The translations under genes and the position numbers were made by a program. Positions 2,842-16,506 of a DNA stretch of 64,000 nucleotides are shown here, piece after piece. The DNA lies in NCBI RefSeq assembly GCF_000379765.1, contig NZ_KB903430.1, forward strand, positions 592,945 through 656,944, given 5' to 3'. Source of the stretch: Flexithrix dorotheae DSM 6795 (GTDB taxonomy: Bacteria; Bacteroidota; Bacteroidia; Cytophagales; Flammeovirgaceae). Positions within the stretch are counted from its first letter, which is position 1. The number at the start of each line of letters is the position of its first letter. The notes beneath the pieces are model-generated. The model saw only the letters and a list, made by a program, of their open reading frames with translations, was not told the DNA's origin and did no database searches.

Positions 2842-3377
2842 AGTACATTTACGAGATTAAATTGTATTTAATAGTAACCAATCCGTTTTCAGATGCAAAT
2901 CTACAAATTATAAGAAATCTTATTCACCTCTTGTTTTATTTAAAATTTTTAAAAATAGTAAAATCCCAGATTTTAGTAGATAAGTACCCGATTTTTTATT
3001 ATTATTTTTATAAATAAGTTTAGATTATTAATTTTTAAACAAAAAGAAAATACCAAGTTGTTCCAACTCGCTCCACTATAAAAGTAATTGCCCTTTTATT
3101 CCAACTTAAGTGGTTGGACAGAAATAACTACCTTATAGTTGGTCACCTGGAGCAGAGCTCCATTCCGGGAGCTCAACTGATCGATACTAAGATGTAGTTA
3201 CTCTACAATAAAAAAATACCCGAAGTGGGATTCTGGTTCCTAGTTCGATTAAATTTTCACCATGATATTCCTCAGAAAAGGTTCTACAAATGTACGGTTA
3301 ATTATTTGATTTTTCACTTGTCGGTAATTTGGAGAGATTATTTACCTTCGTAAAATCAATTCCAAATTTTCAAAAGA
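2842..3377. other. 536-bp intergenic region, possible structured RNA at 3049-3245
   Basis: No convincing protein gene is present. The outer parts are very AT-rich. The middle (about 3049-3245) is less AT-rich and full of inverted repeats: AGTTG-TTC-CAACT near 3055, TCCAAC..GTTGGA near 3101-3119, a perfect GAGCTCC-attccg-GGAGCTC hairpin near 3156-3175, and GTAG-TTACT-CTAC near 3192. The ends can also pair partly (TCCACT near 3073 with AGTGGG near 3226). This could be a small structured RNA or a decayed repeat cluster. Part of it (the reverse complement of 3063-3077) resembles the loop of the REP-like B element at 15849. The downstream gene has a TACCTTCG sequence at 3343-3350 that could be its -7 box. 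I do not recognise an Rfam family. Confidence 0.3.
2896..2903 (-). promoter_or_regulatory. Candidate -7 box of the aconitase promoter
   Basis: On the minus strand this reads TAGATTTG, an exact match to the Bacteroidota -7 consensus TAnnTTTG, 55 bp upstream of the aconitase ATG. No clear TTTG -33 element is present at the usual distance, so the call rests on the -7 match and position alone. Confidence 0.4.
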
Positions 3378-4115
3378 ATGGCGGATCAAGCTCTTGTAAA
3401 AAAAATTCGGTTTAAAGACGATCAGAAAGCGCTGTTAATGAATGCCCCGGCCAATTTTGCCAACCGGCTTTCTGACCATGAAATAAGCGCTGCTATTCCC
3501 CTCGAAGCAGAAAAATTTGAATTCATTTTGCTGTTTGCTACCAATCAGCAGGAGTTAAATCATTTTGGTCCGCTTTTATTTAATGCCCTGGAGCAGGATG
3601 GTTTACTTTGGGTGGCTTATCCCAAAAAATCTGGCAAAATCACAACTGATCTTACCAGAGATACAGGTTGGGAAATTTTGAAGGATTATGCACTTACTGG
3701 AATAAGTATAATTTCCCTTGATGACACCTGGTCGGCTTTAAGACTGGGAAAAGTGAAAGGAGGTTCTTCAGGCATGCTGGCAGAACTGTATAAAGGTGAG
3801 CATGAGAAATTAAGGACTTTATATGAAAAGGTAGAAGAATTTACGCTGTCCCTTGATAAAAAAATCATCCTAAAACAGCGGAAAAATTATTCTCCTTTTT
3901 ATGCCAAAAGGCAATTTATGGCTATCAAACCAGTAAAAGGAAAACTGGTAATCGGTTTACGCCTGCCTGCTTCTTTTCAATCGGCCTTACCTGCAATTGA
4001 CATTATTCCATTTAAATTGAATGAATCCTTAAATTTCGCTTTGATAATGGAAAAGGAAGAAGAATTTAATGATGCAGTAAAAAATCACATTAAGGCGGCT
4101 TTTGAATTTAAGTAA
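3378..4115 (+). CDS. DUF3052-like and DUF5655-like two-domain protein
   Basis: 245 aa. The first half (about residues 15-125) has the layout of DUF3052 proteins: a strand around EFILLFATNQQEL, then GLLWVAYPKK followed by a Thr-Asp-Leu-Thr segment, then ISLDDTWSALRLGK. The second half (about 140-240) resembles DUF5655, with FTLSLDKKI, a short YSPFYAKRQFMAIKP segment and VIGLRLP. DUF5655-type domains occur in proteins suspected of nucleic-acid binding, but the function is unknown. There is no signal peptide or membrane segment, so it should be cytoplasmic. The gene is alone on its strand; the convergent neighbour ends 10 bp downstream. The ATG is the first in frame and gives a sensible N-terminus. 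The domain names come from motif recall, not a search. Confidence 0.7.
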   Translation: MADQALVKKIRFKDDQKALLMNAPANFANRLSDHEISAAIPLEAEKFEFILLFATNQQELNHFGPLLFNALEQDGLLWVAYPKKSGKITTDLTRDTGWEILKDYALTGISIISLDDTWSALRLGKVKGGSSGMLAELYKGEHEKLRTLYEKVEEFTLSLDKKIILKQRKNYSPFYAKRQFMAIKPVKGKLVIGLRLPASFQSALPAIDIIPFKLNESLNFALIMEKEEEFNDAVKNHIKAAFEFK

Positions 4116-4124
4116 GCAAATAAT

Positions 4125-4529
4125 TTACTTTGTCAACCAATCCCGTGCCTCTTTCTCAGATTCGAAATGCTGGGTCTCCGTTACAATTTTACCCACTTCA
4201 TCAATTGTTTGCACGATGGAAATCCTGGCGAAAAAATCCTTACTGACTATAAAAGCCTGTTTCTGCACATTATTACTGACATAATACGGATAAATTTCTT
4301 CTGCCATCCAGGTTTGGACTAATGGATCTATGGTAAATCCAAGCTCCCTTGAATCAACTAATAATTTTTCCGGTCTAAACTTTTTAATTCCCCCTACCCA
4401 ATGGCTGAGATTTTCCTTAAACTCCATTTCGTTCATTTCCTTGGAGTCCTTAAACCATATGGATTTTAATAAAGATTCCTCTTTGTCAAAAGTGATTTCT
4501 TTATATCGACTTCGATAATATTCCTGCAT
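4125..4529 (-). CDS. SpoIIAA-like (STAS-fold) protein, paralogue 1
   Basis: 134 aa and a close paralogue of the next gene upstream (4588-5013). Both share a W(F)xxSE/K..M segment, a KxLLVDSRE strand, a WMAEE/NIYP motif near the middle, KQAF(I/L)VS, DFFARISI and a C-terminal F-x4-EA-x-x-WL motif. The last motif and the overall strand-helix order match the SpoIIAA-like family (PF11964), small STAS-fold cytoplasmic proteins of unclear role in Bacteroidota. No catalytic residues are evident. The 58-bp gap to the paralogue contains a perfect ATCCCAC-AA-GTGGGAT palindrome that may end the upstream message. The family assignment is an inference from pattern; the duplication is directly visible. Confidence 0.65.
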   Translation of the reverse strand: MQEYYRSRYKEITFDKEESLLKSIWFKDSKEMNEMEFKENLSHWVGGIKKFRPEKLLVDSRELGFTIDPLVQTWMAEEIYPYYVSNNVQKQAFIVSKDFFARISIVQTIDEVGKIVTETQHFESEKEARDWLTK

Positions 4530-7767: not shown

Positions 7768-8133
7768 CTTAAATAGCTGTATGATTAGATATTTACTTTT
7801 ACTATTTTTATAATGATTCCCATAGTTGGGATTCATATAATTATCTTAACTCACAAATTGCCAATAAATTACAATTTGTTAATAAATACCAAATTGTATT
7901 TTTTTATTAGCTAATTAAAAATTGAGTCTTTCTTATTTACATTTATTAACAAAACATAAACATACACTCATTATTTTAAATAGTAAAATTATTTCAAATA
8001 AAAATCATCCAAATTATATCCTTCTAAAATATGTTGTGGGTTTAAACAGCTCAATCATTTCCAAGTTTCTGAAGAAAATTAATTTAAAATTCCACAAAAT
8101 CCGGATAAATAAAGCTTGAGCAAAAACTGATTG
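7768..8133. other. 366-bp AT-rich divergent intergenic region
   Basis: Promoter region for the leftward response regulator and the rightward metallopeptidase. It is extremely AT-rich with long A and T runs. Oligo repeats of the type CAAATT and AATTTG occur around 7854-7898, but no clear promoter pair or hairpin could be fixed. A TTG-initiated frame at 7922-8119 is considered spurious. Confidence 0.5.
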
Positions 8134-8913
8134 ATGAAGAGGTTATTAAAAATATCACTGACCTACCTGGTTCCTGCTATTTTTATAGCAATATTGATCT
8201 ATGGGCTAAATTTCAATCACCAGATTCGATGCATTTTGGTGGAATATGACCTTTCTTCTCTAAGAAAAGAAACTGATAATTTATATGTTTCTGCTGGAAT
8301 GGATAAAATTGATGCAGCCCTGCTCAAGGAAAATATTGAGGCATCAAGGAAAAGGCTGAGCCATTTCTTTGATACAGTTTATGCCAATCCTGTCTTTTTA
8401 GCTGGAGATTCAGAAAATTTTATGCGGACTTATGGCGCTCAACTTAATAGTCCTGGAATGAATCACATTACCCCAATCGGTTCTTATATTGTTTTAGGTC
8501 CCAAAGGATTGAATAGGGATGTCATTAGTCATGAACTGGTCCATGCAGAACTGGTGTACCGGGTAGGCTGGTGGAACAGGGAAATGGAAATTCCCACCTG
8601 GTTCGATGAAGGTCTGGCCTTAATGCTGGATTACCGCTACAAAGATTCGGATGCTATGTGGAATATTTTAACTAAAAAAGGGGAAGAGGCTCCATCTTTA
8701 AAAGAACTGGAAAAAATGAAGGACTTTATCCGGATTACACAAAAAAGCCCCTACTTGTCTTATGTCACTTCTATGCGGGAAGTTTCCAGATGGTGGAATG
8801 TAGTAGGTTTAAATGGTTTTGCAGAATTTACAGACCGCATAAAAAATGGAGAACATTTTCCGTCTGCCTACAAAGAGACAGAAAATAAGTTCTCCAGAAT
8901 GACTAAAAAATAA
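8134..8913 (+). CDS. Membrane-anchored gluzincin-type zinc metallopeptidase
   Basis: 259 aa. The ATG at 8134 is preferred over the TTG immediately before it. Residues 4-27 form one hydrophobic segment (signal anchor), and the rest should face the periplasm. The zinc site is clear: HELVH in the segment DVISHELVHAEL provides two His ligands and the catalytic Glu, and WFDEGLAL about 25 residues later provides the third ligand Glu, as in gluzincins of the peptidase MA clan. The domain is short, and I do not recognise a named family or substrate. It is convergent with the M56-M23 operon, 14 bp away; no functional link is proven. Confident as a peptidase fold, uncertain in role. Confidence 0.75.
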   Translation: MKRLLKISLTYLVPAIFIAILIYGLNFNHQIRCILVEYDLSSLRKETDNLYVSAGMDKIDAALLKENIEASRKRLSHFFDTVYANPVFLAGDSENFMRTYGAQLNSPGMNHITPIGSYIVLGPKGLNRDVISHELVHAELVYRVGWWNREMEIPTWFDEGLALMLDYRYKDSDAMWNILTKKGEEAPSLKELEKMKDFIRITQKSPYLSYVTSMREVSRWWNVVGLNGFAEFTDRIKNGEHFPSAYKETENKFSRMTKK

Positions 8914-8927
8914 TTTGGGGGCTTCTC

Positions 8928-10343
8928 CTATTCAAACTTCACTCCTTCTCCAAAATAATCGGCCGGGTCTACAGGTTGATCGCCTTTTAGTATTTCATAA
9001 TGCAAATGAGGTGCTGTAGACATTCCCGAAGAACCTACTCTGCCAATTAGGTCGCCTCTTTTCACCTCTTGTCCTTCTTCCACTAAAATCTCATCTAACT
9101 GGGCATATCTGGTAAAATAATTTTCATCGTGAGCCAGTGTTATCAGCTTACCATAGCCACCATTTTTAATTTCAGCTCCCTTCACCTCGCCATCCGCAGT
9201 AGCATAAACCCCAGTTCCGGTGGGGGCCGAAAAATCTACTCCCCGGTGCATTTGTCTTTTCTTATGAATAGGATGGGTACGCATGCCAAATCCTGAAGTC
9301 ATTTTATGCATTTCTTCTCTTTTGAGGGGTAACATATCCGGGATACCCTTGTCCTGCTGAGGCTGGTGAGCCACAGAAAGCATTTCCGGAGCAGGTTGTT
9401 TAACCAATTCATTTTGATTGACATTTTCGTTTTCCTGTTTACAAGAGAAACAAAACATTAGCCCGCCAATAAGGGGCATTACGATCAGGTACTTTAATTT
9501 TTGCATAGTTTGTATTTGATTTTGATTGATTTTCTGTATTCTTCTTTTGATGGGAATATTAGCAAAATGATTAGCAACAGTACTTTTCTGCTGCCTGATC
9601 GCCATTTTTAATACCAGCTGGAAATAATTGGAGATGCCAAATTTCCCGGCAGTTTGTCCATCGGCAATAAACTCATGATTTTGTTCAATAGCCTTCTTAT
9701 AAAGTCCCAGAAGTGGATTGAACCAAAATATCACTTTTAGAACTTCTACCAATAATATATCTAGTGAATGCCATTCCCGAGCATGTACTTCTTCATGGGC
9801 AATTACCTGTGCCTTTTCACTTTCGGTCAATCCTTCAGGATTAAGAAAAATCAACCTGAAAAATGAAAATGCAAAGGGTTTATGATGAATTTCCACCAAA
9901 GAAAAGGATCCATACTTTGTTACTTTTCCATTCAAAGCCATCCTGATAATACTCAAGATATTCCTCTTCAATTGAAAAAAAGCAATGGAGAAACCTGTTA
10001 TATAGATAAGCAGACCTAGCCAATAATATACTCCACTTTCTGAGTTTTCTACATTCCCAAACTCTTCCATAGGCATTCCTTCTTCTATTACCAGCAGTAC
10101 CAGTTGGCTTTCAACATGCTCTACTACTTTTCTGGAATCTGTCATTCCATTTGGTAAAAGATCATTAAATATGTTTGGATCAATTTGAAGTAAAGGAATA
10201 AAAAAGCTTAATCCCAGTGCCAATAGCAGGAAAATTCTATTCCATTGGTACAAACCAACTGATTGTAAAACCCATCGATAGAAAAGGTAAAATACAATTA
10301 GGCAACAAGTGGAAGAAAGTAAGTAAATGATAAGGTTATTCAT
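8928..10343 (-). CDS. BlaR1-type M56 / M23 fusion peptidase, copy 1
   Basis: 471 aa. Topology and domains: membrane segments at about 4-24, 36-53, 106-125 and 284-300. The M56 metalloprotease motif HEEVH (183-187) lies in the large loop between segments 3 and 4, where BlaR1 holds its gluzincin site. A C-terminal M23 (LytM-like) domain occupies about 345-465 with HxxxD (His366, Asp370) and HLH (446-448). In BlaR1 the C-terminus is a beta-lactam sensor; here a peptidoglycan-endopeptidase fold replaces it on the periplasmic side. The second catalytic His of M23 (YxHL) is Gln415 here (YAQL), so this copy may bind rather than cut. Last gene of the BlaI operon, 58 bp after its paralogue. Confidence 0.9.
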   Translation of the reverse strand: MNNLIIYLLSSTCCLIVFYLFYRWVLQSVGLYQWNRIFLLLALGLSFFIPLLQIDPNIFNDLLPNGMTDSRKVVEHVESQLVLLVIEEGMPMEEFGNVENSESGVYYWLGLLIYITGFSIAFFQLKRNILSIIRMALNGKVTKYGSFSLVEIHHKPFAFSFFRLIFLNPEGLTESEKAQVIAHEEVHAREWHSLDILLVEVLKVIFWFNPLLGLYKKAIEQNHEFIADGQTAGKFGISNYFQLVLKMAIRQQKSTVANHFANIPIKRRIQKINQNQIQTMQKLKYLIVMPLIGGLMFCFSCKQENENVNQNELVKQPAPEMLSVAHQPQQDKGIPDMLPLKREEMHKMTSGFGMRTHPIHKKRQMHRGVDFSAPTGTGVYATADGEVKGAEIKNGGYGKLITLAHDENYFTRYAQLDEILVEEGQEVKRGDLIGRVGSSGMSTAPHLHYEILKGDQPVDPADYFGEGVKFE

Positions 10344-10401
10344 GAAAATTAAATCTGGTTGGTTGAATTTCTAAATCTTCTGTAGGCAATAAAGCAATAG
10401 T

Positions 10402-11841
10402 TTAATACTGATTTTCAAGCACTTCCACCTGACTTCCGAAAAAATCTTTTGGGTCTACTTTTTTATCTCCTTTTTTGATTTCGTAATGTAGATGCGGTTT
10501 TACCGACAAGCCAGTGGAGCCAACAGTGCCAATAACATCCCCTTTCTTCACTTCCTGCCCTTCTTCCACTAAAATTTCTGATAAATGAGAATAGAAAGAG
10601 GAAATTTCTTCATCATGCTCCAATTCTATGCTGTTGCCATATCCCTTTTTACTTACCTCTGTTTGAGCAACTTTTCCATTAGCAGTAGCAATTACCGGAG
10701 TTCCTTCAGGAGCGGTAAAATCTACTCCTGTATGCATCCTTTTTACTTTTAGGATAGGGTGAAATCTCATTCCAAAACCTGATCTAACTTTTTTGAACCC
10801 TTCATCACTTAATGGGAAAATATCTGGAATAGCTTTTTTTGGAATATGAGGGGAATCTTCTACTAATACCTCAGGCAATTGTAAAACTGCAATTTCCTTT
10901 TCTTTTGGTTTTAATTCCTGTATTTCTTCTTCACAGGAAAAGCAGGCTAAAAGTCCTCCAATGAGGGGAACTGCAATAAAGTATTTAAATTTTTGCATAG
11001 GTTGAATTGGATTCTGATTAATTTTTTGAATTCTTGTTTTTATGGGAATATTGGCAAAGTGATTCGCCAATACACCTTTTTGCTGCCGGATAGCCATTTT
11101 CAAAACCAGTTTGAAATAATTGGAAACGCCATACTTCTGTGCAGTCTGCTGATCGGCAATATATTCGTGGTTTTGCTCAATAGCTTTTTTATAAAGTCCT
11201 AAAATTGGATTGAACCAAAAAACTACCCTGAGCATTTCTACCAACAAAATATCAAGTGAATGCCATTCCAATACATGTACTTTTTCATGGGCTATTATCT
11301 GAGATTTTTCCTCTTCTTTTAATCCTTCCGGATTCAGGAAAATCATTTTGAAAAAAGAAAAAGCATATGGTTTATGTTTTATTTCTATAAGGTAATAGCT
11401 TCCCTTCCTGGTCACTTTCCCATTTAATGCTATTTTCAATATGCTGAAAATGTTCCTTTTTAAACTGAGAAATGATATTACATAACCAATAAGGTAGACC
11501 GCAAGCCCTATCCAGAAATAATAATAATCTGCGCTTCCTGAACTTTCTGCTACTGGCAAATTTTTAGACGGGGCAGCTTTCTCCCACATCAGATAGACGA
11601 ATTGATTTTCAACTGCCTCAACCATTTCCCCTGACTCCGAAATAGATGCGGAAAAAACTTTGCTAAATGCTGTGGAATCAATTTCCAAAACAGGAATTAA
11701 GAAACTGAGCCCAAGTGCGATCAATAAGAAAAACCTGTTCCACTGGGGTAAACCTGCAGATTGCAAAATCCATCTGTAAAAAAGATAGAATACAATGAGA
11801 CAACACGCTGAGGAAAGGGCGTACAATAAAAAGCCATTCAC
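10402..11841 (-). CDS. BlaR1-type M56 / M23 fusion peptidase, copy 2
   Basis: 479 aa and about half identical to copy 1 along its length. Membrane segments lie at about 4-24, 36-53, 108-127 and 286-301. The M56 motif HEKVH is at 185-189, and the EQNHEYIAD helix follows at 222-230. The M23 domain (about 350-470) is complete: His370, Asp374, His419 in FYSHL, and HLH at 450-452. It should therefore be a competent zinc endopeptidase, either on peptidoglycan or acting as a sensor. It starts with GTG at 11841, supported by alignment with copy 1. It lies 53 bp downstream of the BlaI-type repressor, whose cleavage by the M56 domain is the expected signalling step from the BlaR1 precedent. The signal sensed is unknown. 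Confidence 0.9.
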   Translation of the reverse strand: MNGFLLYALSSACCLIVFYLFYRWILQSAGLPQWNRFFLLIALGLSFLIPVLEIDSTAFSKVFSASISESGEMVEAVENQFVYLMWEKAAPSKNLPVAESSGSADYYYFWIGLAVYLIGYVISFLSLKRNIFSILKIALNGKVTRKGSYYLIEIKHKPYAFSFFKMIFLNPEGLKEEEKSQIIAHEKVHVLEWHSLDILLVEMLRVVFWFNPILGLYKKAIEQNHEYIADQQTAQKYGVSNYFKLVLKMAIRQQKGVLANHFANIPIKTRIQKINQNPIQPMQKFKYFIAVPLIGGLLACFSCEEEIQELKPKEKEIAVLQLPEVLVEDSPHIPKKAIPDIFPLSDEGFKKVRSGFGMRFHPILKVKRMHTGVDFTAPEGTPVIATANGKVAQTEVSKKGYGNSIELEHDEEISSFYSHLSEILVEEGQEVKKGDVIGTVGSTGLSVKPHLHYEIKKGDKKVDPKDFFGSQVEVLENQY

Positions 11842-11894
11842 TGTGAAAAATTTTAAATGGATAAGAAGGGTTTAGGATGTTAAACTAAGTAAGA

Positions 11895-12266
11895 TTATTT
11901 GTCAATCTTCCCAATGATGTCCTTAATTTCCTCAATCTCTTTCTCGCTGAGTTCCTCTTCCTGTACCATAAAAGAAACCAGTTTTTCATACGATCCCTCA
12001 AAATAATTGCTGATCATATTTTTAAAGGTAAATTTTTTATAGGCTGACTTGGAAACTATGGGGAAATACTCATGTGTTTTACCATAAGCTTTATGATCTA
12101 CAAAACCTTTTTTCTCCAAAATCCTCACTACGGAGGAAATAGTATTATAAGGCGGTTTTTCTGGTGCCATCTTAGCAATGACATCTTTCACAAAACCCTT
12201 TTTAAGATCCCAGAGGATTTGCATCACCCGCTCCTCTGTTTTTGTAAGTGCTTCTAATTTTTTCAT
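11895..12266 (-). CDS. BlaI/MecI/CopY-family repressor
   Basis: 123 aa, the normal family length. A winged helix occupies about residues 5-75 with the typical LTKTEERVMQILWDL start and the recognition segment YNTISSVVRILEKKGFVDH. The C-terminal third (85-123) forms the dimer and cleavage region. It is the first gene of an operon with two M56-M23 membrane proteins, the same logic as blaI-blaR1. It probably represses its own operon. Two perfect inverted repeats lie directly upstream, 30 bp apart centre to centre, and are proposed as operators. No beta-lactamase gene is nearby, so the wider regulon is unknown. Confidence 0.93.
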   Translation of the reverse strand: MKKLEALTKTEERVMQILWDLKKGFVKDVIAKMAPEKPPYNTISSVVRILEKKGFVDHKAYGKTHEYFPIVSKSAYKKFTFKNMISNYFEGSYEKLVSFMVQEEELSEKEIEEIKDIIGKIDK

Positions 12267-12279
12267 AAAGCAAACATAT

Positions 12280-12322
12280 AACTTAATTTTAAGTTTTACA
12301 ACTAATTTTTACGTTTTAAAAC
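12280..12322. promoter_or_regulatory. Paired dyads, candidate BlaI-type operators
   Basis: AACTTAA-TT-TTAAGTT (12280-12295) and GTTTTAAAAC (12313-12322) are both perfect palindromes. Their centres are 30 bp apart, close to three helical turns, and 14-56 bp from the BlaI-type start codon. This placement suits cooperative repressor dimers. They differ from the staphylococcal TACA/TGTA operators, so the assignment is inference. Confidence 0.45.
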
Positions 12323-12485
12323 TTTTTGTGCAGTTTTAGAAATTAAAAACTCACTTAAAACACTAATAATCAAACTACTAAAACTAACATTTTTTTTATT
12401 CTGAAAACGCTAAATCCATTAATCCAGAAAAAATATATTTATTAAAATCTTATTTTACCTTTACCATTAAAAATCGACATAACCG

Positions 12486-12980
12486 ATGAAACCAAGAATT
12501 GAAGAAATTACCGCCAAAAAATTGATTGGAATGCGCATAAAGACTTCTTTGGCAGAAAATAAAACTGCCCATCTTTGGCAGAAATTTATGTCAAGGAAGG
12601 ATGAAATTAATAGCCAAAAGAATTCTGGATATTTTTCTGTACAAATATTTCCGGAGGACCTGAGTTTTAAGGATTTCGATGATAAAGTTATTTTTGAAAA
12701 ATGGGCGGCAGTGGAGGTAAAAGATGTGGACAAAATCCCTGAAGATATGGAAACACATACTTTATCCGCAGGGAAATATGCAGTTTTTGTCCATCACGGA
12801 CCAGTAAGTGCTTTTGGGGAAACACTCAATTATATTTTTGGAATTTGGTTACCAAATTCGGATTACTTACTAGACAATAGGGAACATTTTGAAATTATGG
12901 GTGAAAAATATTTCGGTCCAACTCATCCCGATTCTGAGGAAGAAGTCTGGATTCCAATTAAAGACAAGCTCCCTGAATAA
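12486..12980 (+). CDS. GyrI-like / AraC effector-binding domain protein
   Basis: 164 aa, a single GyrI-like domain with no DNA-binding part. Visible features are the opening KPRIEEITAKKLIGMRIKTS strand, a central block KWAAVEV.DVDKIPEDM followed by HTLSAGKYAVFVHHGP (the usual GxYAvf.h.G signature), and the C-terminal EHFEIMGEKYFGP block with E..IWIPI-like ending. Stand-alone members of this fold bind small molecules or act as small hydrolases. Cytoplasmic. A TACCTTTA sequence at 12456-12463 could serve as its -7 element. The gene is not obviously in an operon with the next gene, which is 78 bp downstream. Confidence 0.85.
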   Translation: MKPRIEEITAKKLIGMRIKTSLAENKTAHLWQKFMSRKDEINSQKNSGYFSVQIFPEDLSFKDFDDKVIFEKWAAVEVKDVDKIPEDMETHTLSAGKYAVFVHHGPVSAFGETLNYIFGIWLPNSDYLLDNREHFEIMGEKYFGPTHPDSEEEVWIPIKDKLPE

Positions 12981-15957: not shown

Positions 15958-16506
15958 ATGCCTTCAAAATACATTATAAACAATCCCCAATCGCTCCACT
16001 TCATTACATTTTCTACGGTGCAATGGGTAGATGCTTTATCCAGACCGAGTTATAAAGATATCATTATTGAAAGTCTTCGGTACTGTCAAAAAAATAAGGG
16101 ATTAATGCTTTACGCCTATGTAATCATGAACAATCATGTCCACCTGATTGCTTCCGCAAAGGGAAATTATAACCTTTCAAATATTCTTCGTGATTTAAAG
16201 AAACATACCAGCAAGAAACTATTTGAGGCAATTCAAAATAATATTCAGGAAAGCAGAAAATCATGGATGATGTGGATTTTTAAAAGTGCAGGTAAAGCCA
16301 ACTCAAACAATAAGTATCATCAACTTTGGCAACATGATAACCACCCTATCGAACTTAGTTCTAATCATTTGATACAGCAAAAATTAGATTATATCCATCG
16401 AAATCCGGTAAAGGCAGGAATTGTTTACGAACCCCATCATTATATTTATAGTAGTGCTTTTGATTATGCCGGAGGTACTGGTATTTTGGAAATTGACTTT
16501 CTTTAA
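15958..16506 (+). CDS. REP-associated tyrosine transposase (RAYT, Y1_Tnp)
   Basis: 182 aa. Family marks are the HxH metal motif MNNHVHLI (His60, His62) and the catalytic Tyr145 in QQKLDYIHRNPVKAG, followed by the usual Y/SS ending (YIYSSAFDYAGG). RAYTs are single-copy domesticated relatives of the IS200/IS605 transposases that nick single-stranded REP hairpins and are held to spread REP sequences. The gene is framed by palindromes: cluster 2 ends 45 bp upstream, and D2 begins 8 bp after the stop. All active-site residues are intact, so the protein is probably functional. No terminal-inverted-repeat element of its own is visible. Confidence 0.93.
   Translation: MPSKYIINNPQSLHFITFSTVQWVDALSRPSYKDIIIESLRYCQKNKGLMLYAYVIMNNHVHLIASAKGNYNLSNILRDLKKHTSKKLFEAIQNNIQESRKSWMMWIFKSAGKANSNNKYHQLWQHDNHPIELSSNHLIQQKLDYIHRNPVKAGIVYEPHHYIYSSAFDYAGGTGILEIDFL

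Follow-up and report, generated by a model that had tools for sequence, protein, structure and literature searches.

A BlaI-type repressor with two tandem M56–M23 fusion proteins in Flexithrix dorotheae: a candidate BlaR1-like signalling unit with a peptidoglycan-peptidase fold as its outer domain

Results

The window, that is, the whole stretch of DNA that we analysed, comprises 64,000 nucleotides from Flexithrix dorotheae DSM 6795. Between positions 8928 and 12266 its minus strand carries, in this order, a gene for a BlaI/MecI-type repressor and two genes for M56–M23 fusion proteins, referred to here as copy 1 and copy 2 (Table 1). The Pfam matches for M56 (5.6e-13 and 1.2e-11 for the two copies), M23 (6.6e-33 and 2.3e-33) and Penicillinase_R all exceed the curated cut-offs. 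Gaps of 53 bp between BlaI and copy 1 and of 58 bp between the copies make a blaI–copy 1–copy 2 operon plausible, and a convergent gene (8131–8913) is the downstream neighbour of copy 2. A sequence-only reading of this DNA had described a BlaI gene with two tandem, full-length M56–M23 fusions, and the open reading frames, the Pfam matches and an identity of 61% between the copies over their full length confirm that description.

Table 1. Features of the putative operon, its upstream region and the distant genes that carry the same array
Feature	Position	Strand	Basis
BlaI/MecI-type repressor, 123 aa	11895..12266	minus	Pfam Penicillinase_R 8.5e-30; MecI 4.7e-16 (PDB search)
Copy 1, M56–M23 fusion, 479 aa, GTG start	10402..11841	minus	ORF and Pfam
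Copy 2, M56–M23 fusion, 471 aa, ATG start	8928..10343	minus	ORF and Pfam
Copy 1 M56 (BlaR1-type) region, HExxH...E	11023..11805	minus	Pfam, residues 13–273
Copy 2 M56 region, HExxH...E	9531..10310	minus	Pfam, residues 12–271
Copy 1 M23 domain	10450..10740	minus	Pfam, residues 368–464
Copy 2 M23 domain	8964..9254	minus	Pfam, residues 364–460
Copy 1 catalytic His419 codon (CAT)	10585..10587	minus	Alignment and sequence
Copy 2 Gln415 codon (CAG), at the catalytic His place	9099..9101	minus	Alignment and sequence
Promoter-like elements, Bacteroidota type: TATGTTTG (12271–12278), TTG (12299–12301)	12271..12301	minus	Sequence
Operator-like array, three 16-bp dyads AACN10GTT, exact 20-bp period	12280–12295, 12300–12315, 12320–12335		Sequence
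Orphan M56 genes	L053 G000:C80:136096-137814; L054 G000:C14:392204-394129		Array upstream

Identity between the copies is 52% in the first three membrane helices, 76% in the M56 protease, 25% in the linker after the last helix and 58% in the M23 domain. The overall dN/dS is 0.09, a rough value as dS is near saturation, and the ratio is higher in the M23 part (0.16) than in the M56 part (0.08), again with synonymous sites near saturation. On the fusion tree copy 1 and copy 2 are sister genes, and the only other tandem pair, at locus L048, likewise forms its own sister group. The M23 domain of copy 1 keeps all five zinc and catalytic residues (H370, D374, H419, H450 and H452), whose roles we presume from those in LytM. 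Copy 2 keeps the three zinc ligands, with one catalytic histidine replaced by Gln415. The label of peptidoglycan endopeptidase that both domains had been given thus holds for copy 1, with its intact site, but is doubtful for copy 2, whose M23 domain, judged by these residues, may not be an enzyme.

Hydropathy analysis places membrane helices near residues 3–26, 37–55, 105–127 and 283–303, with an extra stretch at residues 194–216 inside the protease part. This is the BlaR1 plan, by which the M23 domain is predicted to lie in the periplasm. The HExxH...E motif is intact in both copies and in all 28 fusions examined. A profile built from 15 M56 parts (A5) matched Staphylococcus aureus BlaR1 (PDB ID: 8exp) at 7e-14 across residues 1–324, with the HExxH...E motifs coinciding. 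BlaR1 Phe284, the P1' residue of BlaR1 autocleavage (PMC9834060), aligns with Phe262 of copy 1, a position at least 90% conserved among the 15 M56 parts. The NCBI blaR1_generic model scored 27 bits for copy 2 and 16 bits for copy 1 against a cut-off of 400, as expected because the receptor differs: the C-terminus of both copies is an M23 domain by Pfam, and neither has the class-D-lactamase-like penicillin-binding receptor. On sequence grounds the sensors are therefore BlaR1-like in their membrane and protease parts but without the defining receptor feature of BlaR1, and the earlier proposal of a swapped receptor, M23 in place of a beta-lactam-binding domain, stands.

In both copies the fourth membrane helix ends in FSC followed by charged residues, a lipoprotein-signal-like arrangement (9441–9449 and 10933–10941), and a similar cysteine occurs in seven of the ten M56 proteins of the same genome. 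BlaR1 has a reported signal-peptidase site after its last helix (PMC9834060). We did not retain a lipidated receptor as an interpretation, as the FSC cysteine was confined to the window pair among 16 aligned fusions. A full-length copy 2 model, for which copy 1 was the sole partner sequence, was unusable (pLDDT 34.3).

The window case is not unique. We examined 28 M56–M23 fusions in 26 loci of 25 genomes. Profile searches gave matches across both domains in at least 14 of 390 genomes of the order, at least 12 of 395 genomes of the class (two of them already found and one, G666, partial) and at least 4 of 395 genomes of the phylum sample (one new); these samples overlap, and the counts are lower bounds, since scoring covered just the top few candidates of each genome. 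A BlaI gene lies directly upstream on the same strand in 26 of 26 fusion loci, mostly overlapping or a few bases away; at L154 it is 330 bp away, as the M56 frame begins late there. Tandem fusions occur at two of the 26 loci (the window and L048) and are thus rare. At L048 the M23 sites are intact in both copies, and a third M56 gene with another C-terminus follows, so that one BlaI heads three sensors. The division of labour suggested earlier for the tandem copies therefore fits the window, with one intact and one Gln-containing active site, but is not general. No neighbouring gene common to the fusion loci, as a possible target, was seen among the loci with full lists of open reading frames; for L144–L154 the comparison covered tagged frames alone. 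Judged from coordinates only, M56 genes that lack M23 seem to form rows of two or three as well (G094 C54, G246 C14 and G021 C1).

All five M23 residues are kept in 19 of the 28 fusions, so a pseudoenzyme is not the rule. Position 419 (copy 1 numbering) is Gln in seven fusions and Ser in one, while L052 has lost two positions other than 419. Among 71 stand-alone M23 domains, 65 keep all five residues, and the six that differ all do so at position 452, the last His of HLH. Loss of His419 thus separates the fusions (8/28) from the stand-alone domains (0/71; Fisher 1.8e-5), and loss at any of the five positions does so less sharply (9/28 against 6/71; p 0.0097), both tests treating relatives as independent, with near-identical relatives such as L117 and L118 counted separately, and using a non-random control of mostly MepM-like proteins picked by similarity. 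This control replaced a smaller initial one, in which 1 of 50 stand-alone domains had lost a residue. At least five changes at position 419 are needed on the fusion tree, in which several deep branches are weak, and the His-to-Gln change is also found in single-fusion operons of other genomes.

A model of the copy 2 M23 domain, made from 24 sequences, had a pLDDT of 80.6. Its closest Foldseek match was ShyA, with Csd1 and Csd2 as well as other M23 structures among the best matches. Taken together, the fold and the state of the active sites suggest a sensing role for the M23 part, with wall material as its target, and a binding-only role for copy 2. Among the fold matches are PDB entries titled as His-to-Ala mutants of a single such peptidase, one of them pentapeptide-bound.

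In some fusions an Amidase_3 domain follows M23, by Pfam in L119 (7.7e-32) and L122 (5.5e-34), with which L121 aligns, and by sequence in L151, L153 and L154, which belong to another family. The last glutamate of this domain, which we take to be catalytic, is Asn or Ser in L119, L121 and L122 and Glu in L151, L153 and L154. At least two lineages thus gained a second wall-hydrolase fold, which did not stay intact in every case.

The BlaI of S. aureus is cut at the Asn101–Phe102 bond (PMC9834060). The window repressor has the Penicillinase_R domain of the BlaI/MecI family, and the P1' place is F, M, I or L in all 26 BlaI proteins (18, 5, 2 and 1, respectively, counted by hand from the alignment), the window BlaI having Met. 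At P1, where S. aureus has Asn, these proteins have F, H or Y instead.

Upstream of the window BlaI lies the operator-like array, whose first two dyads overlap the promoter-like elements; for the latter, TATGTTTG and TTG, we assume the Bacteroidota promoter consensus. Dyads of the ACTN8AGT type are common to the upstream regions of BlaI genes. ACTAN6TAGT occurs in 19 of 32 such regions (the 26 fusion loci and six other BlaI genes of the same genome), and across 30 shuffles of the regions no four-base-arm dyad exceeded 8. In the 9.5-Mb genome the single-dyad pattern with at most one mismatch gave eight matches, all at three places. With two mismatches it gave 13 further matches, five at the same three places and eight scattered, and the reversed control pattern gave 14 in all. 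We rejected the eight scattered dyads as targets, as they lie in or near other open reading frames, form no array and do not outnumber the control. The paired-dyad pattern without mismatch occurs at six places (each read on both strands), all in three promoters, against one forward and one reverse match for the reversed pattern.

These three promoters belong to the window BlaI and to two M56 genes that have neither a BlaI nor a sister sensor beside them. The latter lie on other contigs, with the array 72 and 78 bp upstream of the gene (L054 4705–6630 and L053 4097–5815), and encode a long C-terminal part with no Pfam match over the cut-off. By eye, this C-terminus resembles that of the third L048 gene. 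The same genome has ten M56 and seven BlaI genes, and its other BlaI promoters are without the AACN10GTT double array. Given the array at three places, BlaI and four M56 sensors likely form one regulon; two of these sensors are M23-tipped and two have another, unnamed outer domain. If BlaI binds the arrays, as we infer from the sequence, one repressor probably serves all four sensor proteases; the putative network is wider than the operon, which the sequence-only reading had missed. We found no effector gene with the array in the 9.5-Mb genome, only sensors and BlaI; targets with weaker sites may have escaped detection, or the outer domains of the sensors may themselves be the output.

In a genome of the same genus (G001), the array likewise precedes an orthologous orphan M56 gene, which has the same neighbouring gene, but a search of this draft, 84% complete, turned up no BlaI with a similar operator. 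Across 15 related genomes, the pattern with at most one mismatch lies at five places at BlaI or M56 promoters (the assignment at G008 C302 involving a BlaI-like start cut by the contig end) and at six elsewhere or unassigned. Nine distinct triple arrays were found in 1.37 Mb of DNA, each preceding a BlaI or M56 gene, in a set that includes overlapping loci, consists largely of M56 and BlaI loci and is thus not a fair sample. At L043 no BlaI was detected between the triple array and the M56 gene.

Discussion

The window operon shares with BlaI–BlaR1 and MecI–MecR1 of Staphylococcus (PMC9834060, PMC7593790) a repressor, an M56 membrane protease and a receptor place after the last helix, as well as the HExxH...E motif, the Phe at the autocleavage place and dyads over the promoter of the repressor itself. 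With a BlaI gene upstream of every fusion locus examined, the alignment to BlaR1 and the operator-like array, the blaI–blaR1 logic proposed earlier is supported. The window differs from BlaR1 and MecR1 in its receptor, an M23 fold in place of a penicillin-binding or class-D lactamase domain; in having two sensors within the operon plus a further two elsewhere with the same array; and in that no lactamase or PBP target was seen for the operon.

The same pair of domains is recorded for database M23 proteins (PMC9662197), in which M23 together with another catalytic domain, M56 included, makes up less than 1% of hits; according to this review, a role of M56 in wall cleavage is not shown to date. 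Its lines on M56–M23 proteins describe neither an operon nor the state of the active site, and mention no operator or regulon. Our literature search on M56–M23 sensors with BlaI returned nothing beyond these lines in the extracts obtained, and PMC12578637 was set aside as a match by word only. The Csd1–Csd2 pair of Helicobacter (PMC9662197; PDB IDs: 5j1l and 5j1m) resembles the window pair in uniting one intact and one degenerate M23 domain. Csd1 and Csd2 act as a heterodimer; they are cell-shape proteins, with no protease or repressor mentioned in the review. The L048 pair is not of the intact/degenerate kind. In Bacillus licheniformis a peptidoglycan dipeptide is reported to be a coactivator of BlaI/MecI and links BlaI release to wall turnover (PMC3305447). 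Unlike what we propose for the window, that system has BlaR as its receptor, and its dipeptide targets the repressor within the cytoplasm.

We think it fairly probable that the locus encodes a BlaI–BlaR1-type signalling unit with an M23 peptidoglycan-peptidase fold, partly a pseudoenzyme, as its outer receptor. At rest, neighbouring BlaI dimers would occupy the three dyads at their 20-bp spacing, blocking both the promoter of blaI and the two sensors and those of the two distant M56 genes. The ligand of the periplasmic M23 domain would most likely be peptidoglycan, nascent or damaged, or peptides derived from it. On its binding, a signal would cross the membrane part and free the cytoplasmic M56 zinc protease to cut BlaI, and the sensor genes would be turned up. 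Copy 1 can probably bind wall peptides as well as cut them. Copy 2, in which the zinc site is kept but a catalytic His has given way to Gln, probably binds such peptides and leaves them uncut; the receptor of BlaR1, a lactamase fold that turns over slowly, offers a parallel (PMC7593790).

A different account would make the M23 domain the effector: a wall hydrolase anchored in the membrane, with BlaI setting its amount and M56 reporting something else, such as the membrane state or its own processing. As far as found, the operator controls the sensors alone, so they may be the output, and the intact M23 site of copy 1 and of most fusions suits a hydrolase. The catalytic His has been lost repeatedly among fusions, yet in none of the stand-alone relatives compared, and M23 stands where BlaR1 has its receptor. 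Both points speak against the effector account, which we regard as unlikely. Direct sensing of beta-lactams by a true resistance regulator would explain why the BlaI and M56 families are present, yet with M23 where the class-D-lactamase-like receptor should be, blaR1_generic scores far below the cut-off and no lactamase among the neighbouring genes scanned, we consider it highly improbable.

It is also rather improbable, in our judgement, that the pair reflects plain tandem duplication, with copy 2 redundant and its M23 site decaying. The sister relationship of the copies, the Gln in copy 2 and the higher dN/dS in M23 than in M56 would follow from such decay; against it, both genes are full length with a low overall dN/dS (rough, given the near-saturated dS), the zinc ligands of copy 2 are kept, and the same His-to-Gln change recurs where there is a single fusion.

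The receptor reading can be extended, more tentatively and as a possibility short of probable, to a closed many-sensor switch. One BlaI and four membrane proteases would be joined through three triple-dyad promoters into a regulon of repressor and sensors, in which the outer domains are also the output, and crippled hydrolases trap wall peptides while an intact copy alongside produces or trims these peptides. The common triple-dyad array predicts cross-talk among the four sensors. To our knowledge, it is largely open how Bacteroidota monitor the condition of their wall, and the receptor reading, if true, would provide a small, one-step wall sensor. The BlaR1 membrane protease would then be a general chassis carrying different receptors, and the loss of one catalytic residue would have turned a hydrolase into a receptor, in parallel to the path from lactamase to receptor in BlaR1.

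Some minor observations concern the surroundings of the array and other loci. A divergent GyrI-like gene at 12486 shares its intergenic region with the array. Elsewhere in the window, the open reading frame at 15958–16506 has, by eye, the look of an IS200/REP-type transposase. In another genome, an AACTAA-type double dyad (L224 2792–2849; G002:C1:296291) lies upstream of a gene (2849–4210) that is neither M56 nor BlaI and is a possible outside target of another BlaI.
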